Of a stretch of 34,433 nt of DNA, positions 38 to 26,291 are shown piece by piece. This stretch comes from a virus. The stretch's first letter is position 1; each line of letters opens with the position of its first letter. The notes below the pieces were generated by a model. The model ran no database searches. It had not been told where the DNA came from and saw nothing but the letters and a program-made list of their open reading frames with translations. The DNA lies in IMG/VR virus record IMGVR_UViG_3300033148_001402, positions 1 through 34,433 of that record; one strand, given 5' to 3'. The position numbers were made by a program, and so were the translations under genes.

Positions 38-853
38 TCAGCAGTAGAAACAGAACAGTTTGATAGCGAAGTAAAACACGCATATCAGGGAGCAAAGACA
101 CTTAGAGAGTGTATCACGTATAGAAGTGCAGAGGGCGGCAAGTATGACTTCCGTTTAATGGGTAAAGGTCAAGCAACACAAAGAACAGGTGCATCAGCAG
201 ATGTAGTTCCAATGGGAATCTCTCATGGTTTAATCGTGGCAACACTATTGGATTTTGAAGCTTCTGAATATACAGACATTTACAATCAAGCAGCAGTTAA
301 CTTCGATGAAGTAACACAGCTAGCAAGTACAATCGCAAACGCAATGGGTCGTAGAGATGACCAATCAATCATAGATGCAATGGAAGCAGGCGCAAGTGCT
401 ACACCAGTTGGTGCAGGTACACAAACACTTGATTTAGCTACTATTACAGCAGCATCAAAAGCACTTAATGCAGTTGAAGCACCAATGGAAAACAGATACA
501 TGGTTATTCACGAGGGTGGGTTAAACGACTTACTAAATGCTGAAAAAATCACAAGCGCAGACTACAACTCAGTACGTTTACTTATGAGTGGTGAACTTGA
601 CTCATTTATGGGCTTCAAATGGAAAATCATCGGCTCAGGTCGTGCAGAGGGTGGACTTCCACTAGCATCAACAGTACGTTCAGGTTTCGCATTTCACAAA
701 GATGCAGTAGGTCACGCAGTTGGTATTGACATGAAAACAGATGTTGATTGGGTACCACATAAGAAATCACATTTATCAAGTGGATCATGGAAAGCAGGCT
801 CAGTAGTTATTGACTCTGAGGGTGTAATCGAAGTTAAATACTTAGAATCATAA
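23..853 (+). CDS. Major capsid protein (HK97-fold type)
   Basis: This 276-residue protein should form the icosahedral head shell. It resembles the group of short podovirus capsid proteins that start with an acidic helical N-arm, then a conserved YQGA-K-LR segment near residues 21-29 and an MGKGQAT motif near 46-52. A helical spine follows (near 90-125, containing AMGRRDDQSIIDAM), and the C-terminus has compact beta segments. There is no N-terminal delta domain of the length seen in HK97, which fits the separate scaffold gene at 32396-33088. The start has a clear AAAGGGG ribosome-binding site 7 bases upstream. On the circle its upstream neighbour is a - strand cassette, so it needs its own promoter. 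Downstream comes a small protein, then a hairpin. Confidence 0.85.
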   Translation: MSQNLSAVETEQFDSEVKHAYQGAKTLRECITYRSAEGGKYDFRLMGKGQATQRTGASADVVPMGISHGLIVATLLDFEASEYTDIYNQAAVNFDEVTQLASTIANAMGRRDDQSIIDAMEAGASATPVGAGTQTLDLATITAASKALNAVEAPMENRYMVIHEGGLNDLLNAEKITSADYNSVRLLMSGELDSFMGFKWKIIGSGRAEGGLPLASTVRSGFAFHKDAVGHAVGIDMKTDVDWVPHKKSHLSSGSWKAGSVVIDSEGVIEVKYLES

Positions 854-863
854 GGAGTAAGTA

Positions 864-1112
864 ATGGCATATAGCAGAAAAAACGTATCAGGATCAATAG
901 GTGGTGGCTCAGGCGCACCTCAATTTTATACATTCAGAGATACAGGAAGCAATAAGGCAGCAATCGATACAGACGATTACTTCTTAGACCTTAACGATAT
1001 CCTAAAGGTAGGTGATGCAATCTATTCACAAGGCTCAGACGGAGCTTGTCTTTTAGCAGTTACAGCAGTTTCTGCTACGACAGTTACGACAGAAGAAGCT
1101 ACTTTATCTTAG
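864..1112 (+). CDS. Small capsid-adjacent protein, possible head decoration
   Basis: This 82-residue protein has a Gly/Ser-rich N-terminus (SGSIGGGSGAP near residues 10-19) and then a region rich in Thr, Val and Asp that looks beta-structured. It has no Cys pair, signal peptide or membrane span. It sits 10 bases after the capsid gene with its own AAGGAG site and is followed by a strong hairpin, so capsid and this protein could be expressed as a pair at high level. Small proteins in this position are often head decoration or head-fibre proteins. That is inferred from position only; I do not recognise the family. Confidence 0.6.
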   Translation: MAYSRKNVSGSIGGGSGAPQFYTFRDTGSNKAAIDTDDYFLDLNDILKVGDAIYSQGSDGACLLAVTAVSATTVTTEEATLS

Positions 1113-1121
1113 TGGCTACAG

Positions 1122-1139
1122 AGTCCTCTTCGGAGGGCT
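1122..1139 (+). terminator. UUCG-capped hairpin after the capsid pair
   Basis: AGTCCTC-TTCG-GAGGGCT forms a 7-bp stem with one T-G wobble, closed by the very stable C(UUCG)G tetraloop. It is followed by TTTACTAATTA rather than a clean run of T. It may act as a leaky terminator, or as a 3' block that stabilises the capsid mRNA while some transcription continues into the tail genes. A hairpin at 25258-25275 has the same stem length and wobble position. Confidence 0.65.
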
Positions 1140-1162
1140 TTACTAATTACTAAGGAGTTAAA

Positions 1163-1720
1163 ATGAGCGGATTAATAACGAGGGTACAACTTGTAAGTAA
1201 CGCCTTACTTCTCTTAGGTGGAACTACAATCACATCACTTACAGAAAACAGCACAGGTGCAAAGCTAGGCGCAAACTTATTCGAGAATACTTATCTTACT
1301 ATGCTACAAAACCATAGATGGAGATTCGCCGTTAAGACACAAGAACTAAATAGATTAGCAGCTAAACCGAATACAGGCTATGAGTATGCGTATCAACTGC
1401 CTAATGATTTTCTTTACTCAACTAAAGGTGATGCTAGAGACTTCGCAGTTTATGATAACGAGATACATTGTAATCAAAGCACTTTCCAACTTGACTATGT
1501 GCATAGAGTATCAGAGGACTTATTACCTGCATACTTCGCTAAAGCATTAGAGTTTAATCTAGCCTCACAGTTTGCAATTCCATTAACGGGTGATATAAAT
1601 AAAGGCTCATACTATGATAAAGCATATAATGACGCTATAAGAAAAGCAAAGTTTGCTGATTCAAGCCAATATCCAGAGGTCGAAGTACAAGACCATCCAT
1701 ACGTAGACATTAGGTACTAG
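1163..1720 (+). CDS. Tail tubular protein A-like (T7 gp11 family)
   Basis: This 185-residue protein matches the T7 gp11-type tail tube/adaptor protein in size, position and pattern. The N-terminus has a helical segment with N-ALLLLGG-TI near residues 12-23. An LGANLFENTYLTMLQNHRWRFA-type helix (near 30-52) carries the conserved HxWxFA feature. A Y-YAYQLPNDFL motif lies near 69-82, and a long helix with PAYFAKALEFNLASQFAIPLTGD lies near 117-139. In T7 the protein forms a ring between portal and nozzle. It is followed directly (1-base gap) by the tubular protein B-like gene, the usual order. Confidence 0.85.
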   Translation: MSGLITRVQLVSNALLLLGGTTITSLTENSTGAKLGANLFENTYLTMLQNHRWRFAVKTQELNRLAAKPNTGYEYAYQLPNDFLYSTKGDARDFAVYDNEIHCNQSTFQLDYVHRVSEDLLPAYFAKALEFNLASQFAIPLTGDINKGSYYDKAYNDAIRKAKFADSSQYPEVEVQDHPYVDIRY

Positions 1721-1721
1721 C

Positions 1722-3512
1722 ATGGGTGTTGAATTCCTGCAATCTAACCTATCAGGTGGAGAACTAGCACCAACGCTTCATGCTCGTACAGATATAGACA
1801 AGTACGGAAGCTCAGTTGCAGAAGCTAAAAATATGGTTATCGTTCCGCAAGGTGGATTAAGACGTAGACCTGGACTAGCTAAAACAGAAGATGGCTACTA
1901 TGACGAAGAGTTAAGAATAGAGCCTTTTATATTCAACCAAGACCAAAAGTATGTGATGATATTCAGGGCAGGTTTTGTAGATATTATGCGTGATGGTGCA
2001 TTAGTCAAAACAGGTGTGGTACTTCCATTCGCTACTATTGAACTTATAAACGAATTAGACATTATACAGAGTGCTGACACAGTTATAATCACACACGAAA
2101 CAGTCACACCTCAGAAGTTAGTTCGTGGTGCTACAGATGCTGATTGGACTTTATCGGCTATTACATTGGTTATCCCTGATTATGACTTCGGAGCAGGTGA
2201 TGAGCCTGTATGGAGTGCAACAAGAGGTTATCCGGGAGTATCAACTTTTCATGGTGGTAGACTATGGTTAGCAGGCTCAACTGAGAAGCCTACATCAATT
2301 TGGGGAAGTAGAATAAATGACTATTGGGATTTTACATGGGTGGCCACTAGTGGTATTATTCCTGACGACCATGCAATCTTTGACACGATAGACACAAGCG
2401 AATTCAATAAAATCGTTAATGTGTTTACCGGTAGAAAGCTTCAAGTGTTTACATCAGGCGCAGAGTTTGTTAATACTATTGAGTTCCCTACTCCTGCAAA
2501 TTCAAGTTGGCAACAACAAACAGGATATGGCTCAAAGAGATTAAGACCTATTCTAATTGATGGAGCTACGCTGTATGTAGATAGCTCAGAGAGAACGATA
2601 AGACAGTTTATCTATGACTTTAATGAAGATGGCTTCGTATCTAATAACATCACGTTACTTGCTTCACACCTACTTACAGACATAGTAGCATTAAAAGCTA
2701 TTAAGGGTACAACGCTAGACGTAAGTGACTATGTTTACGCAGTTAATTCAGATGGTACAATCGCTGTTATGAATACACTTAGAAGCGAGGGGTTACTTGG
2801 TTGGACTCATTGGGAGACACAAGGCGAATTCTTAGATGTATGTGTATTATCTAAAGAGGTTTACTTCTTAGTTAAAAGAGAAGAGAATTACTTTATCGAG
2901 AAATTAGAAGAAGATACATATACGGATCATAACGTACTTATAAAAGGTACTATGCCAACGACAAGTAATATTATTGATGGAGATTACAACATCATAGACG
3001 GTACAGACAATATAATAGAGACTGATTACTCATCAGGTACACCGGTAACTTCTATAACAACTGATTACAAAGACCTATTTTTAGATACAAAGTTTAAAGT
3101 AGTTGCAGACTTTTCTATTATGCCAGACTCTAAGCCGATAAGTGATGGTACAGACTTAAATCACTTTGAAATCACAAGAGATGCTTATAGATTAGAAGTA
3201 GGATTAGACTTTGAAACTAAGATTAAAATGTTACCATTATCAACAGATACTAAATCAGGTAGCACTTTACACAGACGCAAGAGAGTTGTTAAGGTAGATT
3301 TAAACATCTTAGAGAGCTTAGGTATCTATATAGAAGATATCTATTCACCGGATGAGCAATTCACAGTAGTATTAGATGAAGCACCTGAGCCATATACAGG
3401 CTTTAAAGAGATTTATCTATTGGGTTACCAACGCCTGTACCAGTTTGAGATAACACAAGAGAATCCACTACCATTACTTGTTAGAGGGATTGGATATGAA
3501 ATTGAATATTAG
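1722..3512 (+). CDS. Tail tubular protein B-like (T7 gp12 nozzle family)
   Basis: This 596-residue protein has the hallmarks of the gp12-type tail nozzle. It starts with a short F-x-x-N-x-SGGELAPxLxAR-D segment (near residues 5-24) that is strongly conserved in this family. A patch of VPQGGLRRRPG follows (near 42-52), then a long beta-rich repeat region. There is a YPGVSTFHGGRLWLAGS motif near residues 173-189. The protein should form the distal tail tube and hold the fibres. The gene begins 1 base after the tubular A-like gene, suggesting translational coupling. No frame disruption is seen. Confidence 0.85.
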   Translation: MGVEFLQSNLSGGELAPTLHARTDIDKYGSSVAEAKNMVIVPQGGLRRRPGLAKTEDGYYDEELRIEPFIFNQDQKYVMIFRAGFVDIMRDGALVKTGVVLPFATIELINELDIIQSADTVIITHETVTPQKLVRGATDADWTLSAITLVIPDYDFGAGDEPVWSATRGYPGVSTFHGGRLWLAGSTEKPTSIWGSRINDYWDFTWVATSGIIPDDHAIFDTIDTSEFNKIVNVFTGRKLQVFTSGAEFVNTIEFPTPANSSWQQQTGYGSKRLRPILIDGATLYVDSSERTIRQFIYDFNEDGFVSNNITLLASHLLTDIVALKAIKGTTLDVSDYVYAVNSDGTIAVMNTLRSEGLLGWTHWETQGEFLDVCVLSKEVYFLVKREENYFIEKLEEDTYTDHNVLIKGTMPTTSNIIDGDYNIIDGTDNIIETDYSSGTPVTSITTDYKDLFLDTKFKVVADFSIMPDSKPISDGTDLNHFEITRDAYRLEVGLDFETKIKMLPLSTDTKSGSTLHRRKRVVKVDLNILESLGIYIEDIYSPDEQFTVVLDEAPEPYTGFKEIYLLGYQRLYQFEITQENPLPLLVRGIGYEIEY

Positions 3513-3521
3513 GAGTCTATA

Positions 3522-3929
3522 ATGTGGGGAGCAATAGTAGGATTAATCGGGGACGCCAACAAGAAAGAATCGGCATATAGAATACAAGCTGCTCAAGCTA
3601 AAACGGCAGCAAGTATAGCAAAGATGAATGCAACTTCTACAGCGTACACGCTAGAGAGAAACTTTAATCAAAGAATGGCATCAAACGCTGTAATATCAGC
3701 ATCTCAAGGTAGACGAGGTGGCTCAGTAACAGCTATTGCAAATGCAGCACAAGCCGAACTTAATTGGGATTTAGAGTTTACTAAATTAGGTGGAGATTTA
3801 AGCTACATGAATAGATTAGCAGAAGTTACCTCTTATGAAACTGCAGCAACAACTGCTCAAACAACAGGCTATGCTTCTGCTGCATTAAGTCTGTTAAGTT
3901 CACAACAGAAATATAAGCAGATAGGGTAA
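3522..3929 (+). CDS. Internal virion protein, gp14-like
   Basis: This 135-residue protein is Ala-rich and helical, with a hydrophobic start (MWGAIVGLIGDA) and the segment ASQGRRGGSVTAIANAAQAEL near residues 64-84. Small proteins of this kind directly after the nozzle gene are the gp14-like internal core proteins of T7-type particles, which enter the host outer membrane during DNA ejection. Its place, before three large helical proteins, fits. The family assignment rests on pattern and position, not an alignment. Confidence 0.65.
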   Translation: MWGAIVGLIGDANKKESAYRIQAAQAKTAASIAKMNATSTAYTLERNFNQRMASNAVISASQGRRGGSVTAIANAAQAELNWDLEFTKLGGDLSYMNRLAEVTSYETAATTAQTTGYASAALSLLSSQQKYKQIG

Positions 3930-3938
3930 GGAGACAGA

Positions 3939-5669
3939 ATGGCACAATTACAGGGGTATCAATCTCAGACTCAAGGGCAACTAGCGACTGATGTAAACAG
4001 AGCAGCATTAGCGCCTTTACAGGCAGCATCAAGTTCATTAACACAGAGATTAGAAGCAATGTCAAATATGATGCTAGAGAATCGTGCAAGAAGCAGAAAG
4101 ATTCAAGCAGGTCAAGATGCTCTTGTTGATGTAGCAAAATATAAAAGAGAGATTAGTGATATCAGGACTAAGTATGCAGACTCTCCTGATGATATGAGAG
4201 CTAGATTAGACGAAGCAAAGAGAGGTAGATTTAAAGATGCTTCAACAATCTATGGCGCAGCATATAAGGATCAATTCAATTCTGCTTATTCAGATGAAGT
4301 AAGTTTAGATGTATTAGAAAAGTCATCACTTGCAGAAATAGCTGCTAAAGGTAACGCAGAAACGTACGCTAATGCCATGAATAGTTATGGCTTAGAAATG
4401 ACAAGAAACGCACCTAATGAAGAACTAGCAAGATTCACTAGACTCTCTTATGAGAAAGCAGGCATACAAGGCTTTAAAAAGCTTTCACTAGCAACAGGTG
4501 CAAATACATTCGCTAGAGATAAAAAGATGTCAGGGGAGACGATAGAAGCGCTTACAGGCATCTACTCTCAGTTCACACAACAAGGGGAAGTAGGAGAAGT
4601 TCAAGCAGTCGAGATTCTAGCACAAGCAAACCAAGCAATAGACTCAGCGGTAGCAAGAGGGTTTATGAGTAAGCCTATGGGATTTACAACTAAACAAAAT
4701 GTAATCAAGCAAGGACAGACACAATTAATCAAAGCAGACTACAACAGAGCAAGAGAATCTCACTCTGAACATATTTATCTTGATGAACTCTCAAGAAATG
4801 AAGATATGCTAAAACTATTTACTCCTGACGAATTGAATAAAATCATGTCAGATATTAAAGCAGATATGCAAGTGAGAAATGATTTAGCTAACGCAGAAGA
4901 AGAAGAGTATAAAGTACAGTTTGAAAAGAACAAAGAAGATGCTGTATTAAAACTTCAAAAAGAGCAAGTGTACGGCACTCTGACAATAGAACAAATAGAC
5001 TCTGCTTATAAGATGGGATATCTAAAAAAAGGTGAAGCCGATAATTGGTATTCTAATTTTTATGAGGGTCCTGCAAAAGCTGAAAATAAAGAGGTTGAGC
5101 TAATATACAGACAGGCAATATCTGCTTATGATGAAAACAGAATTGTAAATGATGAAAGAATGACACATTCTCAGAGAATAGCTTTACTGCAATTTAAAGA
5201 ACAAGACGCAACAAGCACAACAAACAAGTGGACCACATCAGTCGAGGGCAAGAACGCTATAGAGCGTATCAAAAACAATTGGAAAGAATTAATGGTTACA
5301 ATGCCTGGTATGCCTGTAAGCTCAAGAAAGATTCAAGACTTTAATGAAACATACAATGAGTTTATGAATACGATGCAAGCACTTCCTGAAAACCAAAGAG
5401 TACCAAGAGCAATAGCATACGCAGATGCAGTTCTGGCAACATATAGAGAGAAAGAGTTTGAAAGAAAGAAAGAGAATACAGCAGTATGGAGTGAAAAGAA
5501 AGCGAAATCGAAAGAAGCAACTCTTGAAGCAGATGCTCAATCTTACAGAGACGGCTTGACTGAAACTCACAGAGCATATTATGATAAAGGTGTAGCTAAA
5601 TTCAGAACAAGTTTCGGGAATACAGGACTCATCAATTTTGGTGGAACTAATAAGGATATAGAATGGTAG
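3939..5669 (+). CDS. Internal virion/ejection protein (gp15-like position)
   Basis: This 576-residue protein is almost entirely helical and charged, with long stretches that look coiled-coil. There is no signal peptide or membrane span. It lies second in the internal-virion block and overlaps the next gene by 7 bases, so the two are probably translated together. In T7-like virions proteins at this place (gp15) build the internal core and then a trans-envelope channel. I see no catalytic motif. The length is shorter than T7 gp15 (about 750 residues), and homology is inferred only. Confidence 0.6.
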   Translation: MAQLQGYQSQTQGQLATDVNRAALAPLQAASSSLTQRLEAMSNMMLENRARSRKIQAGQDALVDVAKYKREISDIRTKYADSPDDMRARLDEAKRGRFKDASTIYGAAYKDQFNSAYSDEVSLDVLEKSSLAEIAAKGNAETYANAMNSYGLEMTRNAPNEELARFTRLSYEKAGIQGFKKLSLATGANTFARDKKMSGETIEALTGIYSQFTQQGEVGEVQAVEILAQANQAIDSAVARGFMSKPMGFTTKQNVIKQGQTQLIKADYNRARESHSEHIYLDELSRNEDMLKLFTPDELNKIMSDIKADMQVRNDLANAEEEEYKVQFEKNKEDAVLKLQKEQVYGTLTIEQIDSAYKMGYLKKGEADNWYSNFYEGPAKAENKEVELIYRQAISAYDENRIVNDERMTHSQRIALLQFKEQDATSTTNKWTTSVEGKNAIERIKNNWKELMVTMPGMPVSSRKIQDFNETYNEFMNTMQALPENQRVPRAIAYADAVLATYREKEFERKKENTAVWSEKKAKSKEATLEADAQSYRDGLTETHRAYYDKGVAKFRTSFGNTGLINFGGTNKDIEW

Positions 5670-7882
5670 ACTTAGAAACAATAGAGGGTCAAGAGGGTAC
5701 AGCAAACGTAGGTGTAACTATTCCTAACCCTGATGAAGTTCAAGCAGAGCAACAAGTAAAAACAGAGGGATGGGAGAAAAGAGCATCTCAGCAACCGCCT
5801 GCCCTAGACCAAATAGAATATGATAAACTAAGACAAGAAATCTCATCAGATTTTAGAGATGATAAAGCACTAGCAGAGAATGTCGGTCAGGAATATCAAA
5901 GAACAAAAGAGTCAGAACTTAAAGATGATGAGCAGTTTATGTTTGCTGCTAATATGTTTTATGAGAGAACTCAAGGTGAGCCATATAAAGGAAATCCCGA
6001 AGAGCTCGTATCATCAACACTTCAAGATTTATCATTCATCAGAGACAATACGGTATCAATGGCTAAGACTTTAGCAACGGTAGGCTCTTTATCAACAGAA
6101 GAAGCACTTACACTTCATTATTTAGTTGGTAAGATAGATGCAACAGATGAGGATAATTGGCAAGCTGTAAAACGCTTTGGTGTATCTGTAGGGCTTGACC
6201 CAACAACATGGATAGGTTTAGGTGCGCCTGCATTTGTAGCTAAAGCAGCAACAAGAACAGCAGGAATGTCTGGATTAAAACTAGCACTAAAAAAAGCATT
6301 AACACCTGCAAAAATAGCAGCACTAGAGGGCGCAGTATATACAGGCGGATTCGTTCACGGTGAAGAGAAGATATCAGAAGAAGCAGGATATGGATATGAT
6401 GCAACAACCGTAGCAGCGGCAACCGGAATAGGTGCAGTATTAGGTGCAGGTGCAGTTAAAGGCATCGAGTCTATACCAAAGGTAGGAAAAGAATTATCAG
6501 GCTTTATTGGGAGAAAACTAGACGAAATGGAGTCAGCTTCTGGCGCAGAGTTTATTACAGGGATGCAATCTATAATGGATAGAAGATATAAAAGTGACGG
6601 ACTCACAAGAACTGCTAAAAAACACGCTAAAGAGTTTGGTTTGACTGACGAAGAGATAGCAGACTTTGATGCAGATGATTTTCAATACTTCAATAAAGCA
6701 TCACGAATGATTGATAACATGGATATACAAGCTAAAAAAACAGGAGACTATGATCCGAAGACAATAGACCAAGAGCCTGCACGTCCTATGGAAGAGATAA
6801 CTAAAGAGCTAGAAGATTGGGAAGCAAGCCAAGCTATAGAGGATAAAGGCATAAGAAAAGGCGAAGTTGTTACAGCAGAGCATGACCCTAATATTGCTCC
6901 ATATAAGAGACCAGAGAAGCCGAAAGTAGAGGCAGCAAAAAAAGTGCTTGACCCTAAACTATATGCAACTCATAGGACTAGCATTAACAACTTATCAAAA
7001 ATGTTAGATGAGGGAGTATTGCCTGCGCCATCGTTTGCACTAGCTAAAAGCTCTAAAGTATCTGAGCAATTTGGTGATATTGTAATGATACCAAAAGAAA
7101 AACACATAGACCCTAAAAAAGGTGCTTATGCGTTTGGCGGTGATGCGTGGACTCCAAGAATTAAGTTTGACCCAAATGAAGAAATGGAAATTATAGATTT
7201 AAAAGCACCTATTTTCGATATGTTCCCCGGCTTCAAAACATTAGCTAAAAACGCTTACGATAAAGATGATTTCTATAACATTATCTTAAATGAAGAAAAA
7301 TATGTAAATTGGCTTGACAAATATGGAGCAAATAGAGGCTTTGATACATACGAGTCAGCAGACAGAATAGCAAATCAAATATTTAAAACAGAGAAGCCAA
7401 GTCTTAAAAAGAAAATAGCACAGATGAAAAAGCTTATTAAAGATAGTGGTGGAGATATTAGAGGATTAGAAGATGCGTTTACTCCAAGTTACATAGACGA
7501 ATATAAACAATATTTTAATTTAGAAGATGTTGCAAAAAGAGGTAAAGAGTTAAAGACATTCAGAGATAAAGATAAATTCTATGCAGAAGCAGAAAAAGCT
7601 ATTAAAAAAGGTGAGCAGCCTCCTGCGGATTACATGGAAGCTAAAAGAATTGACTTAGTGCCAGTAGAAGATTTAGATAGAATCGTAGTGCCTGTAAATC
7701 AATATGACGAAGTCGTAAAGATGTTTGAAGAAAAAGGCATTAAAGTAGATATAATTAAGCAGAGAAAAGGCGAATCAACAAATAGCGCAATCAAAAGAAG
7801 CTCATCAGGGAAAAGTAATTTTATTTGGGGTGGAGCTTCTGTAGGGCTAATACCATTGTTTGATAAAGAGGAAGATAATTAA
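5663..7882 (+). CDS. Ejection protein with polyvalent-protein-like domain
   Basis: This 739-residue protein starts with an acidic helical N-terminus and then, near residues 170-285, a glycine/alanine-rich amphipathic region (TWIGLGAPAFVAKAA, IGAVLGAGAVKG) that could insert in membranes. After a charged linker there is a compact domain from about 434. It has a HRTSINNL start (His437), then LPAPSFALAK (454-462), FGDIVMIP (470-477) and DAWTPR (494-499). That order resembles a domain I recall from large polyvalent proteins of phages and conjugative elements, which enter the recipient cell with the DNA. The rest (500-700) is Lys/Glu-rich. The gene overlaps its neighbour upstream. A role in ejection is inferred from the block it sits in; the effector idea is speculative. 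Confidence 0.6.
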   Translation: MVDLETIEGQEGTANVGVTIPNPDEVQAEQQVKTEGWEKRASQQPPALDQIEYDKLRQEISSDFRDDKALAENVGQEYQRTKESELKDDEQFMFAANMFYERTQGEPYKGNPEELVSSTLQDLSFIRDNTVSMAKTLATVGSLSTEEALTLHYLVGKIDATDEDNWQAVKRFGVSVGLDPTTWIGLGAPAFVAKAATRTAGMSGLKLALKKALTPAKIAALEGAVYTGGFVHGEEKISEEAGYGYDATTVAAATGIGAVLGAGAVKGIESIPKVGKELSGFIGRKLDEMESASGAEFITGMQSIMDRRYKSDGLTRTAKKHAKEFGLTDEEIADFDADDFQYFNKASRMIDNMDIQAKKTGDYDPKTIDQEPARPMEEITKELEDWEASQAIEDKGIRKGEVVTAEHDPNIAPYKRPEKPKVEAAKKVLDPKLYATHRTSINNLSKMLDEGVLPAPSFALAKSSKVSEQFGDIVMIPKEKHIDPKKGAYAFGGDAWTPRIKFDPNEEMEIIDLKAPIFDMFPGFKTLAKNAYDKDDFYNIILNEEKYVNWLDKYGANRGFDTYESADRIANQIFKTEKPSLKKKIAQMKKLIKDSGGDIRGLEDAFTPSYIDEYKQYFNLEDVAKRGKELKTFRDKDKFYAEAEKAIKKGEQPPADYMEAKRIDLVPVEDLDRIVVPVNQYDEVVKMFEEKGIKVDIIKQRKGESTNSAIKRSSSGKSNFIWGGASVGLIPLFDKEEDN

Positions 7883-15641: not shown

Positions 15642-16030
15642 GCAGATTAGTAGAAAATATAAAATCATCAGAGGGATTCAGAGGTACAGAATACTTAGAC
15701 AGCCTTGATATACCGACAATAGGTTTTGGTACACGATTACCATTAACGGAAGCAGAAGCAGAGTTGATCCTTTCATTCAGACTTAACCAAAAGATAAGCC
15801 ACTTACTAGACGAAAAGCCGATAGTGCTAAGGCTTCCACAAGATAAGCAAGAGGTACTATTCGAGATGGCATACCAACTTGGAGTAAATGGGCTACTAAA
15901 CTTTAAGATGATGTGGCTTGCATTAGATGGCTTCGATTACAAAGTCGCTGCACAAGAAATGAAGCTGAGTAAATGGTATCGACAAACGCCTAGCAGAGTA
16001 GACAAACTAGCCCAACAAATGGCAGCATGA
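15638..16030 (+). CDS. Endolysin, T4-type lysozyme (GH24)
   Basis: This 130-residue muramidase should cut the peptidoglycan beta-1,4 bond at lysis. The catalytic triad is visible and correctly spaced: Glu12, Asp21 and Thr27 (9 and 6 residues apart, as Glu11/Asp20/Thr26 in T4 lysozyme), followed by IGFGT. A helical lobe with LFEMAYQLGVNGLLNFKMM (about 70-88) and a C-terminal W-RQTPSRVDKLAQQM (about 111-127) match the family. There is no signal peptide or SAR anchor, so it needs the holin at 15255. At 130 residues it is shorter than T4 lysozyme (164), as in many phage lysozymes. Confidence 0.9.
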   Translation: MSRLVENIKSSEGFRGTEYLDSLDIPTIGFGTRLPLTEAEAELILSFRLNQKISHLLDEKPIVLRLPQDKQEVLFEMAYQLGVNGLLNFKMMWLALDGFDYKVAAQEMKLSKWYRQTPSRVDKLAQQMAA

Positions 16031-16119
16031 AACCAATACTAGATGCACTTTTTGCTGCATCAGTATCTATCTCTCTCCTTATGGCTTATTCTCTTATGGG
16101 CTACTTCCACAATAAATAA
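16027..16119 (+). CDS. 30-residue membrane peptide after the lysozyme
   Basis: An ATG overlapping the lysozyme stop (ATGA) opens a 30-codon frame. Its product is mostly one hydrophobic helix (LFAASVSISLLMAYSLMGYF). No separate ribosome-binding site is visible, so translational coupling is likely. A tiny membrane protein at the end of a lysis operon could modulate the holin. I do not recognise it, and a chance frame is possible, though the overlap and hydrophobic content support it. Confidence 0.5.
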   Translation: MKPILDALFAASVSISLLMAYSLMGYFHNK

Positions 16120-16150
16120 TCCTTTAATAATATATTTAATAATCCTTTAA
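16115..16150 (+). repeat. Two tandem 13-bp repeats upstream of the RHH gene
   Basis: AATAATCCTTTAA occurs exactly at 16115-16127 and 16138-16150. The start-to-start distance is 23 bp, about two helical turns, so both copies face the same side of the DNA. The second copy ends 10 bases before an extended -10 element and covers the -35 position. The first downstream gene encodes a ribbon-helix-helix protein, a family that binds tandem repeats cooperatively, so this looks like its operator. Confidence 0.6.
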
Positions 16151-16159
16151 GACTAATCG

Positions 16160-16168
16160 TGCTAAACT
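16160..16168 (+). promoter_or_regulatory. Extended -10 promoter of the recombination operon
   Basis: TGC-TAAACT fits TGnTATAAT with two mismatches, and a start near 16175 would give a short leader to the gene at 16198. The -35 region falls in the second tandem repeat, so a bound repressor would block polymerase. The position at the first gap after the lysis cassette supports a new transcription unit. Confidence 0.45.
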
Positions 16169-16197
16169 TCTCTTACACATAAAGAAAAGGAGACACA

Positions 16198-16362
16198 ATG
16201 ATGAACGAATTAAGAACTAAGATAAACGGCTTTCAGACAAAACCAAGTGAACATGAAAGAATTACAATAGTTGCTAAATCTCTAAATAAAAACAGAAGCG
16301 AATACATAAGAGACTTAGTTTTAAAAGATGTAGCAAAGCAAGAAAAAAAGATGAAAGGATAA
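16198..16362 (+). CDS. Ribbon-helix-helix DNA-binding protein
   Basis: This 54-residue protein has the short strand then two helices of the Arc/MetJ/CopG fold: a strand near residues 19-25 (HERITIVA), a helix, the turn LNKNRSEYIRDLVLKD (30-45) typical of the family's second helix, and a Lys-rich tail. The ribosome-binding site AAGGAG precedes the ATG. It is the first gene of the recombination operon, and tandem repeats lie over its promoter. I infer an autorepressor that controls this operon. Confidence 0.65.
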   Translation: MMNELRTKINGFQTKPSEHERITIVAKSLNKNRSEYIRDLVLKDVAKQEKKMKG

Positions 16363-16365
16363 AAG

Positions 16366-16464
16366 ATGATGCCAATAGCCATATTTATATTCACAGTAGC
16401 AGTTTTAATCAACATAGACAACTACCTAGAAAATAATCGCAAATGGGGTGAGAATTATGAGTAA
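16366..16464 (+). CDS. 32-residue membrane peptide
   Basis: This frame starts 4 bases after the RHH gene with AAAGGA before it. It encodes a short hydrophobic helix (PIAIFIFTVAVLINI) followed by a polar tail with acidic and basic residues. It overlaps the next gene by 8 bases. The spacing and ribosome-binding site favour a real small membrane protein; the function is unknown. Confidence 0.45.
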   Translation: MMPIAIFIFTVAVLINIDNYLENNRKWGENYE

Positions 16465-16597
16465 TGAAGAATCAAGAAAGTATTTTGAAATGTATTATGA
16501 TTTACACATAAACGATGAAAAAGTACAAAACAAAGAGATAGCATGGGCTATTTGGGAAAAGTCAAGAATAGTTACTGAAATGTTTATGAAAGGATAA
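16457..16597 (+). CDS. Small hypothetical protein, 46 residues
   Basis: This frame encodes a charged, probably helical protein (NEESRKYFEMYYDLHIND, then a Trp-containing helix). It overlaps the upstream membrane peptide by 8 bases and ends 3 bases before the ERF gene, with AAAGGA at its end serving as that gene's ribosome-binding site. The tight packing supports expression. I recognise no family. Confidence 0.45.
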   Translation: MSNEESRKYFEMYYDLHINDEKVQNKEIAWAIWEKSRIVTEMFMKG

Positions 16598-22695: not shown

Positions 22696-22724
22696 TTGAC
22701 ATTGTTAAAATATCGTACTATAAT
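22696..22724 (+). promoter_or_regulatory. Consensus sigma70 promoter
   Basis: TTGACA (22696-22701) and TATAAT (22719-22724) are both perfect and separated by the optimal 17 bases. It is the only full consensus promoter I find in the window. It drives the run of small genes from 22751, probably as a strong immediate-early promoter read by the unmodified host polymerase. Confidence 0.9.
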
Positions 22725-22750
22725 TAGGGTATAAGAAAAGGATGGAAAAG

Positions 22751-22954
22751 ATGATTTTAGACGCTAGAAAAATGATAACAACAGATTTAAAAAAAGCTAA
22801 CGAGATAGCTACACTTTACAGAAAAACTGATTTGAATAGTTTTGAGTTTGCAAAGAAATATTTTAGTGAATATCCTTATAGATTTGTGAAAAATACTATA
22901 GATTTTACAAGGCTTATTGAATGGAAAATTCCTTTTGTTATAAAGGAGTGCTAA
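22751..22954 (+). CDS. Hypothetical early protein, 67 residues
   Basis: First gene after the consensus promoter. ATG 22751 is preceded by AAGGA at a spacing of 8; an in-frame ATG at 22742 is too close to that site. The protein is basic and helical (DARKMITTDLKKANEIATLY) with a more hydrophobic end. As the first strongly transcribed early product it is a good candidate for a host-takeover protein, which is inferred from position only. Confidence 0.5.
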   Translation: MILDARKMITTDLKKANEIATLYRKTDLNSFEFAKKYFSEYPYRFVKNTIDFTRLIEWKIPFVIKEC

Positions 22955-22955
22955 A

Positions 22956-23183
22956 ATGGGGGACTATTCAAAAGTATTTAAAAGCAGTAAAATAATAGCA
23001 TACACAAATGAAATGATGAAAGATGAAAAGCTTAATAATAAATATAAAAAAGAGCTCCTTGATTCTTGGGCGTGGAAACTAGAGAAAAACATATATGAAA
23101 ATGGTGTTTTACATTCATCTGAACTATCGGAAATAAATCTATCAATTAGTCACATTAAAGAATGTAAGGACCGCTTAAAATGA
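22956..23183 (+). CDS. Hypothetical early protein, 75 residues
   Basis: A charged helical protein, Lys- and Glu-rich (NEMMKDEKLNNKYKKELLD), preceded by AAAGGAG and overlapping the next gene by 4 bases. There is no motif I recognise. Confidence 0.5.
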   Translation: MGDYSKVFKSSKIIAYTNEMMKDEKLNNKYKKELLDSWAWKLEKNIYENGVLHSSELSEINLSISHIKECKDRLK

Positions 23184-23308
23184 AGCCAACCAACACAAAC
23201 CTAGCTGAGTTTTACGGACTCACTAGGCAGACAATAGGGACATATAAGAAAAGCAAACAGAGACTTTATGAAGCTATGAAAGAATACTTCATTAAGATTA
23301 AAGGATAA
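23180..23308 (+). CDS. Helix-turn-helix DNA-binding protein, 42 residues
   Basis: This short protein is almost only a helix-turn-helix: NLAEFYGLTRQTIGTYKKSK (about residues 7-26) reads as helix, tight turn at G13-L14-T15, and recognition helix. A second basic helix follows. The ATG overlaps the upstream stop region. It could regulate early transcription. I infer DNA binding from the pattern. Confidence 0.6.
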   Translation: MKPTNTNLAEFYGLTRQTIGTYKKSKQRLYEAMKEYFIKIKG

Positions 23309-23311
23309 AAG

Positions 23312-23551
23312 ATGAATCAAAGTACAGCAGACAGACACTACGCAAATGGTGATGGCAATTTATACGCACTAGACAAGCACCTAGACGCAGAGGATGAGAG
23401 AGCTAAACAGCTAGAGGAATTTCAAGAGCTAATCAAACAACACTTAAACACGATAGAAGAAAGCATATTCCATATTCGCAACATTAGTGAGTCGTTTGAG
23501 GACTTAGACTTGGATGATGAGATAAAGTCTAGCATATTGGAGATGTTATGA
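23312..23551 (+). CDS. Acidic coiled-coil protein, 79 residues
   Basis: After AAAGGATAAAAG the frame encodes a helical, strongly acidic protein (LDAEDERAKQLEEFQELIKQ; ESFEDLDLDDEIKSS). It overlaps the next gene by 4 bases. Such acidity could mean a protein-binding or DNA-mimic role, but nothing specific is shown. Confidence 0.5.
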   Translation: MNQSTADRHYANGDGNLYALDKHLDAEDERAKQLEEFQELIKQHLNTIEESIFHIRNISESFEDLDLDDEIKSSILEML

Positions 23552-23889
23552 ATGAGATAATATCTAAAGAGTTATTGAGTTTGGTTTTAGGTAAGAATAT
23601 CACTGAAATAAAATACGTAGAATTGACAAACTCAATTAAATGTGAGTATGGCAAAGAATGGAGAGATTTTATCACAGTAAACCTAGACACTCTAGGTAGA
23701 TTATGTAAAGAGTGGTGTTGGATAAAGCACTACAATCTTATATCAGGTAGATATCTACCAAACGACAAGTTTTTTTGTGACGGAGAAACAGATTTTAAAA
23801 ATAAGTGCATTACAATATATGCAGATACAGAATTGGAAGCAACAATATTGGCTACTGAATGGATAGCTAAAGAGAAAGGCTTACTATGA
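23548..23889 (+). CDS. Hypothetical phage protein, 113 residues
   Basis: This protein has a mixed alpha/beta composition with several Trp and Cys residues (LCKEWCWIKHYNLISGRYL near 52-70) and an Ala-rich C-terminal helix (ADTELEATILATEWIAKEKG). The pattern resembles small conserved phage proteins with a C-terminal helix ending AT-WI; none has a function known to me. It overlaps neighbours at both ends. Confidence 0.5.
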   Translation: MNEIISKELLSLVLGKNITEIKYVELTNSIKCEYGKEWRDFITVNLDTLGRLCKEWCWIKHYNLISGRYLPNDKFFCDGETDFKNKCITIYADTELEATILATEWIAKEKGLL

Positions 23890-24032
23890 CTCTCAAACAA
23901 GAAAACATTAAACTAAAGCAACAAATCAAACACCTCAGAGCCACTATAAAGGCTTACGAGGACAAGTTTAAAGACGCTAAGGCTTATTTATACGAGCAAC
24001 TAGGCGAGATAGAGAAGAGGGGTGAGAGATGA
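23886..24032 (+). CDS. Short coiled-coil protein, 48 residues
   Basis: A single Lys/Glu-rich amphipathic helix (LKQENIKLKQQIKHLRATIK then YEDKFKDAKAYLYEQLGEIE) with heptad spacing. It overlaps the previous gene by 4 bases and the next by 4 bases. It could be a dimerisation module or a small lysis regulator. The function is unknown. Confidence 0.5.
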   Translation: MTLKQENIKLKQQIKHLRATIKAYEDKFKDAKAYLYEQLGEIEKRGER

Positions 24033-24352
24033 TGAGCAAGAAAGTAACCCACTCAAAGCTAAGACCAAAAGCAAAGAAGCTTCCTGAGTATCTAAGTTGG
24101 CTACATAACCAAAGCGACATAGTATGTTTCTCATGCGGTAAACAAAACGGATTAGAAGCACATCATGTTAAACAGGCTTCGTCAGACGAGAGAGATGATA
24201 GTAAGGTCTTGATGCTTTGTGGTGAAGAGTGCCATAGAAACGGTATGAAGTTATCACCACATTCGACTCCAAGAGCTTGGAGAAAGACATATCCAACTAA
24301 TATGCAGTTGGAGTATGCTGCGGAGTTGTTTAGGAGATATAATGAAAGATAG
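24029..24352 (+). CDS. HNH-type zinc nuclease (Ref/DUF968-like)
   Basis: This 107-residue protein has Cys33-x2-Cys36, His45-His46-Val-Lys, and Cys64-x3-Cys68-His69, the zinc-ribbon plus HHV(R/K) layout of small HNH nucleases such as the phage Ref protein and DUF968-type recombination nucleases. A C-terminal SPHSTPRAW and helical end follow. A Lys-rich N-terminus could bind DNA. It likely helps recombination or DNA processing; unlike a homing endonuclease it sits in a run of coupled phage genes. Confidence 0.65.
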   Translation: MMSKKVTHSKLRPKAKKLPEYLSWLHNQSDIVCFSCGKQNGLEAHHVKQASSDERDDSKVLMLCGEECHRNGMKLSPHSTPRAWRKTYPTNMQLEYAAELFRRYNER

Positions 24353-24452
24353 TTTAGTAAATATTATATTCTTAGTGGTGCTTGTATTCGTGATGGCAAG
24401 CATTTATGTAGTTAATCATGAAGAAAGTGCTATAATAGCAGACACAAAATAA
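24342..24452 (+). CDS. 36-residue membrane peptide
   Basis: TAGGAGAT precedes this frame, which begins inside the end of the nuclease gene. One hydrophobic span (VNIIFLVVLVFVMASIYVV) fills most of it, followed by a short acidic tail. It opens the envelope-directed cassette. A role in membrane regulation or superinfection control is possible but unproven. Confidence 0.55.
   Translation: MKDSLVNIIFLVVLVFVMASIYVVNHEESAIIADTK
24427..24435 (+). promoter_or_regulatory. Extended -10 promoter before the envelope cassette
   Basis: TGC-TATAAT is a perfect extended -10 element located just before the Cys-motif and outer-membrane genes. There is no consensus -35. It would allow the exported-protein genes to be transcribed separately from the early operon. 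Confidence 0.5.
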
Positions 24453-24459
24453 AGGAGAG

Positions 24460-24693
24460 ATGATGCCAGAAGAAGCATTAGAGACAGACGTAACAGAAGA
24501 AGAGGTAGAAGTTGAGCCATTTATGGTTGAGGATGAAGATGAAGCGGACAACGTATGTTTAACGTGTACTAATCACAAGGTAGGAAGTAAAGTTTGTGGT
24601 ATTTTAAAACCATTCAGAGATTACATGAGACTTAACGGTCACACAGACACAGAAGAAACATTCACGTGTAATGAATATAAAGGGGCAGAGTAA
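24460..24693 (+). CDS. Acidic Cys-motif small protein, 77 residues
   Basis: The first 31 residues are extremely acidic (EALETDVTEEEVEVEP, EDEDEADN). Then come C33-LT-C36, C46 and C70 in FTCNEYK. The C-terminal layout CxxC-x9-C-x23-FxCxEY parallels the protein at 21287 (FSCSEWE), so the two are probably distant paralogues binding one zinc. AAAGGAGAG precedes the double ATG. It shares one base with the next start. Confidence 0.55.
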   Translation: MMPEEALETDVTEEEVEVEPFMVEDEDEADNVCLTCTNHKVGSKVCGILKPFRDYMRLNGHTDTEETFTCNEYKGAE

Positions 24694-25250
24694 TGAAAAA
24701 AGTAATTTTAGCAATCGCATTAGCAGTATCAGCATTTGCAGGTACAGTAATTAACACAAGTGTTTCGTATGGTAACGTAGAAGCAACAGTAAGCGCATTA
24801 GGTCTTGAAGCAACAGGGACAACAAAGACAAAGTCAATCCGTCAGGATGTTGGTTACGCATGGACTCATGTAAGAGCTACAGGTTATGTTCAACTAGACA
24901 AGTACCAAGATGAAATCATGTCAGGTACAGAGGGTGACGCAGTATCTTATGGTATTGAAGTAGATTACATTCACGCTGTTAATGATAAATTCGGATTCTT
25001 TGTAGGTGGGCTAATAGGCAAAGGCTCAAAAGATTTAGGTAGTGAGGGTGATTCAGCAGGCATTAGTAAGCTAACATTTACAGACAGAGCAATCAGAACA
25101 GGTGTAGCATTCCCGGTTGGCTCATGGAACTTCGAGACAGGGTTTGAGAATAAGATCAGAGACTACGACAATGAGACGATAGACGGTGTTTCAGTTGGAT
25201 TAGAAGAAAAGATACAAAGTATTTTTGTAAGCGCAGGGTATAAGTTTTAG
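24693..25250 (+). CDS. Phage-encoded outer-membrane beta-barrel protein
   Basis: This 185-residue protein has a clear Sec signal peptide (MKKVILAIALAVSAFA, cut expected before Gly17). Alternating strands with aromatic girdle residues and Gly-rich turns follow, and it ends in SAGYKF, with the C-terminal Phe that the BAM complex recognises. The size suits an 8-stranded barrel. It should be inserted in the host outer membrane during infection. A phage may use such a protein to block superinfection, change the surface or aid release. The gene is followed by a hairpin, and a Tat-signal protein comes next. Confidence 0.75.
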   Translation: MKKVILAIALAVSAFAGTVINTSVSYGNVEATVSALGLEATGTTKTKSIRQDVGYAWTHVRATGYVQLDKYQDEIMSGTEGDAVSYGIEVDYIHAVNDKFGFFVGGLIGKGSKDLGSEGDSAGISKLTFTDRAIRTGVAFPVGSWNFETGFENKIRDYDNETIDGVSVGLEEKIQSIFVSAGYKF

Positions 25251-25257
25251 TTAATAG

Positions 25258-25275
25258 GGTACTCGACGGAGTGCC
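25258..25275 (+). terminator. Hairpin after the outer-membrane protein gene
   Basis: GGTACTC-GACG-GAGTGCC is a 7-bp stem with one T-G wobble, followed by TTAGTTAGTT. It has the same stem length and wobble position as the hairpin after the capsid pair. It may be a partial terminator or may protect the upstream mRNA. Confidence 0.55.
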
Positions 25276-25302
25276 TTAGTTAGTTAAAATAAAGGATGAT
25301 AG

Positions 25303-25587
25303 ATGAAAAGAAGAGATTTTCTAAAAGTATTAGTAGCGGTAGGTGTAGTTTCAATAACAGGTGTAGATTCATTTAATGAGAAGTTACCAGAGTTTAATGA
25401 TTACCCAAATATTACATATATGAAAGATTATATTACAGATAAAGGATGCTATTTGCATCAAATACGATTTACAAATAATAAAAGTGAACAATGGGCAGTA
25501 TCAGATTTTTCATTCGATGAAGAATTAAACCCAGAGTTAGTAGCAAATATGTTGAAAGAAGCTCATAGAGTTGGGCTAGTTAGTTAA
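25303..25587 (+). CDS. Tat-exported small protein
   Basis: This 94-residue protein begins MKRRDFLKVLVAVGVVSITG, a textbook twin-arginine signal (RRxFLK) with a moderate hydrophobic core. No clear AxA cleavage site follows, so it might stay anchored. The remainder (about 70 residues) is acidic, with one Cys and an HQIRFTNNKSEQWAVSDF strand pattern. The Tat system exports folded proteins, so the product would fold in the cytoplasm first. It has its own AAAGGAT site and lies right after the outer-membrane barrel gene, suggesting a shared envelope function. The family is not recognised. Confidence 0.65.
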   Translation: MKRRDFLKVLVAVGVVSITGVDSFNEKLPEFNDYPNITYMKDYITDKGCYLHQIRFTNNKSEQWAVSDFSFDEELNPELVANMLKEAHRVGLVS

Positions 25588-25598
25588 AAGGAGAAAAG

Positions 25599-25796
25599 AT
25601 GAGCAATAGAATAAGCGATATTTTAGATGCAGCAGACATTTTAAAAGAAATGGGACTAGAACAAAATGATGATTATTGGTGTGTTTACGGAGACAACGAG
25701 ATAGGATGTTTTGAATTTACGTTCACAGACTTTGATATAAAAAACATACTAGATGGAAACTGCTTTAAGACGGAAGCAGAAGCAAAGGGAGAATAG
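25599..25796 (+). CDS. Acidic small protein, 65 residues
   Basis: The frame follows AAAAGGAG and encodes a protein with 16 Asp/Glu against 5 Lys/Arg (LEQNDDYWCVYGDNEIGCFEF). The strong negative charge recalls DNA-mimic anti-restriction proteins, but many unrelated small proteins are acidic. It is the last gene before the terminase and may belong with the envelope cassette or simply be an early gene. Confidence 0.5.
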   Translation: MSNRISDILDAADILKEMGLEQNDDYWCVYGDNEIGCFEFTFTDFDIKNILDGNCFKTEAEAKGE

Positions 25797-25802
25797 CAAG
25801 TA

Positions 25803-26291
25803 ATGGCATACACTAAAGAACAATGGAAAGATGCAAGAGGGTATTATGAAGCAGGACTCTCATTGTCGAAGATTGTTATTAAGACAGGTATAGGGAAAAC
25901 AACCATATCCCAAAAAGCAAAAAGGGAACAATGGGAACACGGGCGGAATACCGACTATATCGAAGCTAAAGAAATAATTGTGTCAAAAAAGGGAACGATT
26001 TCGGAACAGTCACTAGTAATAGCGGACGAAATAGCACATGAAAACGTACGGTTTAAGAATTTAATCAATGGAAATGCAGAGAAGTTAGCTAATAAGTTAG
26101 CACTAATGGCAGACAGGATTGAAGATGCACAAGACATGAGACACTTAGTAGAAGCTAATGATAAGTTATCTATCACGCTAAAGGTCAATGAGAGACACGC
26201 ACCTAAGCAAGTTACAGCTATTCAAGTAAACAATGAAGAGAAAGAAGTTAAGAGTGGTGTAGGTGAGTTGTATAAGGCTATTAATGAATAA
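25803..26291 (+). CDS. terS: Terminase small subunit
   Basis: This 162-residue protein has an N-terminal helix-turn-helix (YYEAGLSLSKIVIKTGIGKT near residues 15-34) for recognising the packaging site. A helical centre with an Ala/Leu-rich oligomerisation region follows (NAEKLANKLALMADRIEDAQ). The ending, HAPKQVTAIQVNNEEKE, is a common feature of TerS. A small helical gene lies between it and the large subunit, which starts 224 bases downstream. Confidence 0.75.
   Translation: MAYTKEQWKDARGYYEAGLSLSKIVIKTGIGKTTISQKAKREQWEHGRNTDYIEAKEIIVSKKGTISEQSLVIADEIAHENVRFKNLINGNAEKLANKLALMADRIEDAQDMRHLVEANDKLSITLKVNERHAPKQVTAIQVNNEEKEVKSGVGELYKAINE

Follow-up and report, generated by a model that had tools for sequence, protein, structure and literature searches.

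The DNA analysed here, hereafter the window (the whole stretch of 34,433 nucleotides), is a phage genome in which the gene of a predicted outer-membrane barrel with a Sec signal lies beside that of a protein with a twin-arginine (Tat) signal. Both are real accessory genes, and they occur independently of each other among related phages. A preliminary description of this DNA had taken them for a pair that remodels the host surface, in which the Tat protein would partner the barrel from the periplasm. The adjacency in a phage genome stands; the notion that the two act as a pair does not, given their mostly independent occurrence, and a joint function is unlikely. Our own reading, which we hold tentatively and with somewhat less than even confidence, is that of two independent envelope accessory genes: a host-derived barrel that would alter the cell surface, and a separate protein exported by the Tat route.

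A probably complete podovirus-like genome

The IMG/VR record spans 34,433 bases, and because its ends share a 37-base overlap, the 34.4-kb podovirus-like genome is probably complete. It encodes a Terminase_3-type TerL, a T7-like head-tail connector (phrog_332), an internal virion protein, tail fibre-like proteins and a lysozyme. By portal and capsid, the nearest isolates are the Methylophilales phage MEP301 and phages of Vibrio and Pelagibacter, at ~30–40% identity. No integrase was noticed among the proteins examined, and a lytic lifestyle is likely. A portal-profile scan yielded 80 related viral loci, and no relative of the portal was present in 399 Campylobacterales genomes. Between the tail and lysis genes of the window lies an ORF for a 110-aa protein that reaches 29.7 bits, against a cut-off of 29.4, with the prokaryotic phospholipase A2 family PF09056.

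The gene block ahead of the terminase genes

All ORFs named in the preliminary description are present on the plus strand, and a further one precedes the small terminase gene (Table 1). A sigma-70 promoter matching the consensus at 12 of 12 positions is, judging from its location, the probable main promoter of the block 22742–26291. The string TGNTATAAT is no commoner in the window than chance allows (6 occurrences versus 3.1 expected). A TATAAT lies about equally far upstream of the four-Cys gene in the window, L006, L007, L009 and L011; this element belongs to the four-Cys gene, which the barrel-less relatives L009 and L011 also have (60% identity). Family searches returned no match for the four-Cys protein and no significant one for the one-span peptide, at whose corresponding position L009 encodes a one-span peptide of different sequence. 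Among window ORFs of at least 60 aa, a simple scan found export-signal-like N-termini in the barrel and the Tat protein only.

Table 1. Positions of the features discussed, in the numbering of the record named
Record	Feature	Position	Strand	Remark
Window	Phospholipase A2-like protein, 110 aa	14197-14529	+	
Window	Sigma-70 promoter, TTGACA-17-TATAAT	22696-22724	+	perfect consensus
Window	One-span membrane peptide, 36 aa	24342-24452	+	45 aa if in-frame ATG at 24315 is used
Window	TGCTATAAT, -10-like element	24428-24436	+	
Window	Acidic four-Cys protein, 77 aa	24460-24693	+	
Window	Sec-signal outer-membrane protein, 185 aa	24693-25250	+	predicted eight-stranded barrel, C-terminal Phe
Window	Tat-signal protein, 94 aa	25303-25587	+	
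Window	65-aa ORF between Tat gene and small terminase	25599-25796	+	absent from the preliminary description
Window	Terminase small subunit, probable	25803-26291	+	phrog_1206, 3e-4
L002	Small terminase	1011-1547		
L003	Small terminase	735-1211		
L006	Small terminase	2196-2687		
L007	Small terminase	5263-5784		
L009	Small terminase	5312-5839		
L011	Small terminase	5273-5800		
L007	22-bp tandem duplication in barrel gene	~3490-3540		breaks the frame
L141 (G310)	Sec-signal protein, 129 aa	19179-19568	-	
L147 (G321)	Membrane protein and lipoprotein, overlapping	16007-16526	+	

The small terminases listed in Table 1 differ in their N-terminal parts and have a common C-terminal tail, GVGELYKAINE, when the same type of large terminase follows. 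L003, whose portal is 92% identical to that of the window, combines a window-like small-terminase N-terminus with another tail and another large terminase. The pattern suggests that the terminase contact is exchanged as a module.

The barrel: a new family of a known kind

The outer-membrane barrel with a Sec signal and a C-terminal Phe that had been proposed from the letters of the sequence is borne out. The N-terminus carries a Sec-type signal with a likely signal peptidase I cleavage at AFA|GT (heuristic scan and sequence), and the protein ends ...YKF, as befits a C-terminal beta-signal; the last residue of its relatives is F or L. An AlphaFold2 model built with five related phage sequences (mean pLDDT 82.9) predicts eight long antiparallel strands joined by short periplasmic turns. 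Searched against the PDB with Foldseek, this model retrieves NspA (1.9e-7), Ail (3e-7) and OmpX (7e-6), and also OmpA and OmpW.

At the level of sequence, known families lie farther away. The window barrel has no match above cut-off in the curated families of Pfam and NCBIfam; its relative in L006 (39% identity) reaches 4.5e-5 with PF13505 (OMP_b-brl), at 24.1 bits versus a cut-off of 28.7, and Phage_OMP (PF24653) is matched at 0.017 only, below its cut-off. The family profile retrieved no PDB chain sequence at E up to 1, Ail and OmpX included. For the barrel and the Tat protein alike, PHROGs gave no significant match and 50,697 annotated phage records held no credible relative, and PADLOC matched none of the window proteins. 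In BFVD there are 26 matches at E up to 0.001, many of them proteins of uncultured tailed phages named outer-membrane beta-barrel, although their sequence identity to the window barrel is low (7–18%). Small barrels of phages are already known, and the present one is a new family of this known kind.

Origin and evolution of the barrel gene

The five-sequence barrel profile finds full-length proteins of Campylobacterales, the only order searched, with a best E-value of 5.5e-16. Aligned with hhalign over its full length to a profile of six such proteins, it reaches a probability of 99.4% and an E-value of 6.5e-22. These small outer-membrane proteins (180–200 aa) have a Sec signal and a C-terminal Phe like the phage barrel, from which they differ in being only ~27% identical and in standing alone in chromosomal surroundings rather than in a phage; all three of the homologue loci examined are chromosomal. 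Full-length homology to chromosomal outer-membrane proteins suggests that the barrel gene probably came from a Campylobacterales-type host; since the search was confined to this order, it points to homology and a plausible source, not to an exclusive one. A scan of genome contigs gave a single barrel match, in L018, which proved to be a stretch of strands within a TonB-dependent receptor and was set aside as a chance likeness.

Between the window and L002, the barrel has a dN of 0.20 and a dS of 0.98 (dN/dS ~0.21), as against 0.048 and 0.67 for TerL (0.07) and 0.035 and 0.62 for the portal (0.06). By these sequence comparisons the barrel is under purifying selection, yet evolves faster than TerL and portal. 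Substitutions between the same two barrels reach a density of 42% in the modelled extracellular hairpins versus 22% in the membrane strands (Fisher p = 0.01), a comparison of two sequences only, with extracellular boundaries set by the analyst, to which we give little weight; the excess is lost in the five-sequence alignment (0.41 vs 0.40).

The identity of the barrels is out of step with the relatedness of the phages, as expected of a gene that is gained, lost and swapped. L006, with an 85% identical portal, has a barrel of only 38–39% identity, about the same as that of G331 (~40%), whose portal is 54% identical; G005 and G006 (portal ~80–90%) have no barrel, and the distant phages G322 and G331 carry one at the same locus as the window. 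The barrel gene of L007 has lost its frame to a 22-bp tandem duplication, and its part downstream of that is 93% identical to L006. Recent loss, a reversible switch or a fault in the assembly could each explain this.

A phage protein with a Tat signal

The RRxFLK signal noted beforehand is present: the window protein starts MKRRDFLK, and a hydrophobic stretch follows the motif, as predicted for a Tat substrate. The three family members read KRRDFLK, NRRSFLK and NRRNFLK, MxRRxFLK being invariant at 37–38% overall identity. The window protein itself reaches 15.7 bits with the Pfam TAT_signal model, below the 22.7 cut-off, so the assignment leans on its relatives, of which that in L007 clears both curated thresholds (Pfam, 23.4 vs 22.7; TIGR01409, 20.8 vs 16.7). 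In 20 of 21 sampled Campylobacterales genomes Tat-signal proteins are encoded, and the Tat system would hence be on hand in such a host.

Phage genes for Sec and Tat export side by side had been considered rare. The scans of related phages showed no Tat signal outside this family, and its occurrence is more than chance would give: PF10518, run over 48 phage records, recovers the three family members plus one weak match, and a motif scan of ~1.5 Mb of phage loci finds the same three as plausible genes, along with five short or spurious frames. The literature searched describes no phage-encoded Tat substrate of this sort; the twin-arginine motif of Mu gp25 has a reversed topology (PMC9239132).

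Beyond the signal, the protein has no significant family match. Its mature part is modelled at low confidence (pLDDT 61) as three strands and one helix, and the best PDB match, at an E-value of 0.43, assigns no fold. Campylobacterales matches to the Tat profile (E 0.003–0.01) are mainly the signal peptides of ordinary Tat substrates or chance, and a PADLOC hit of the G002 relative to Cas2b (0.0044), weak and 26 residues long, was dismissed. The Tat protein family is in none of the family libraries searched and is less expected than a phage barrel.

The two genes mostly occur apart

On one reading, the barrel and the Tat protein form one functional unit, the latter serving as periplasmic partner. 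Their genes are adjacent in the window and lie within ~1 kb of each other in L007. The search for the gene pair elsewhere did return co-occurrence, yet in the window and G004 only: among 41 related records, some of them fragments that can miss genes, the barrel profile matches 7, the Tat profile 4 and both profiles 2. Most carriers hold the barrel or the Tat gene alone. In G002 (34.4 kb, complete), which has no barrel, the Tat gene is encoded on the opposite strand, between capsid and scaffold genes, and in L007 the Tat frame is intact although that of the barrel is broken. We therefore see little chance of a single unit.

The constant neighbour of the barrel gene is instead the small terminase, encoded in the region directly downstream, which marks the locus in barrel-bearing relatives. 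G003, G322 and G331 have the barrel, the small terminase and the region between them, but no Tat gene. A coiled-coil-like ORF of 65–71 aa follows the barrel in G003, G004 and G331, with a weaker likeness in G322. One contig tried as a further carrier of the cassette, G055:C71, has only TerL in common with the window (54%) and no cassette.

Possible roles in the infected cell

What might these two proteins do? The account that follows starts from what was computed, namely genes, signals in the sequence, a predicted fold, chromosomal homology, conservation and independent occurrence; from these we infer expression, localisation, host and function. The two accessory genes sit in a variable segment ahead of the terminase genes, and the podovirus-like phage that carries them is probably lytic. 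Probably taken from a Campylobacterales-type host, the barrel gene would be expressed during infection, and its product would be exported by Sec and inserted by the host BAM machinery. Its four predicted extracellular hairpins would then change the cell surface, which most likely hinders the adsorption of further phage, be it by superinfection exclusion or by receptor masking. The Tat protein would be a small periplasmic or inner-membrane-anchored member of a new family, exported via the host Tat system; its gene would be a separate accessory that may adjoin the barrel gene and does not need it.

For the barrel, an altered surface that excludes further phage is the most likely role by analogy with Lom, Llp and Cor. 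Members of the Ail/OmpX/PagC group, to which lambda Lom has been assigned (PMC4198210), are likewise small Sec-exported eight-stranded outer-membrane barrels, and Lom is also phage-encoded. They differ in having no significant sequence match to the window barrel, which falls short of homology, and Lom belongs to a temperate phage, whereas in the window phage no integrase was noticed. The role reported for Lom is, moreover, adhesion and not exclusion (PMC4198210), which counts against our reading. T5 Llp, which blocks FhuA (PMC9586334), and phi80/N15 Cor, which inactivates it (PMC11436027), are phage-encoded receptor-blocking envelope proteins and as such possible working analogues of the barrel; Llp, however, is a lipoprotein and not a barrel, and is likened to it by function only.

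For the Tat protein, a separate periplasmic accessory is likely. T4 Spackle is a small phage-encoded periplasmic lysozyme inhibitor and offers a possible working analogue, although its export route differs and the Tat protein has no match to the Spackle PHROG. A bolder version makes the Tat protein the first member of a family of phage Tat substrates that counter competing phages from the periplasm, in some phages alongside a host-derived barrel, such that Sec and Tat routes both guard the infected cell; it strikes us as very unlikely.

The barrel might instead be a fitness gene rather than an exclusion factor, a small channel or stabiliser that lets the infected cell stay supplied or intact. 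Its homologues are ordinary chromosomal genes, and cells that lose the eight-stranded Ail are reported to be affected in membrane lipid homeostasis and in their integrity (PMC8508112). Fast evolution and the swapping of alleles suggest, not conclusively, an arms race, which speaks against such a housekeeping contribution. Eight-stranded barrels, besides, usually have no open pore, and we consider this alternative unlikely. The barrel, perhaps together with the Tat protein, might also weaken the outer membrane and in this way aid lysis or release. In favour of this, a simple scan found export signals in these two window ORFs only, neither with a lipobox, and no spanin-like lipoprotein, though so crude a scan could miss a spanin, and in G310 a different small barrel-like ORF stands beside holin- and amidase-like genes. 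Most relatives, however, lack the barrel and yet must lyse, and the lysis genes of the window, at ~14.5–16.0 kb, are far from it; we hold this reading to be distinctly unlikely. The position of the barrel gene near the terminase genes, in the reading direction of the virion genes, would also fit a virion or tail component. Its Sec signal, however, would take the protein out of the cytoplasm, where virions are assembled, and the lack of a barrel in most relatives argues against a structural part as well, making this extremely improbable.

Small-barrel genes of phages are widespread, mostly without an experimentally tested role; the family described here has a fixed locus in a podovirus-like group, is swapped and lost there, and shows clear homology to bacterial proteins, and this opens its role to tests by expression. 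The Tat route normally carries folded proteins, and if the signal works, phages join its users.

Two observations concern lysis genes and small envelope proteins in related loci. In L147 (G321), the genes of a membrane protein and of a lipoprotein with the lipobox ISGC overlap; the two resemble a spanin pair, for which the simple scan showed no counterpart in the window. In L141 (G310), the gene that directly adjoins the holin- and amidase-like genes encodes a different 129-aa protein with a Sec signal, which ends ...FRF and is probably another small barrel.
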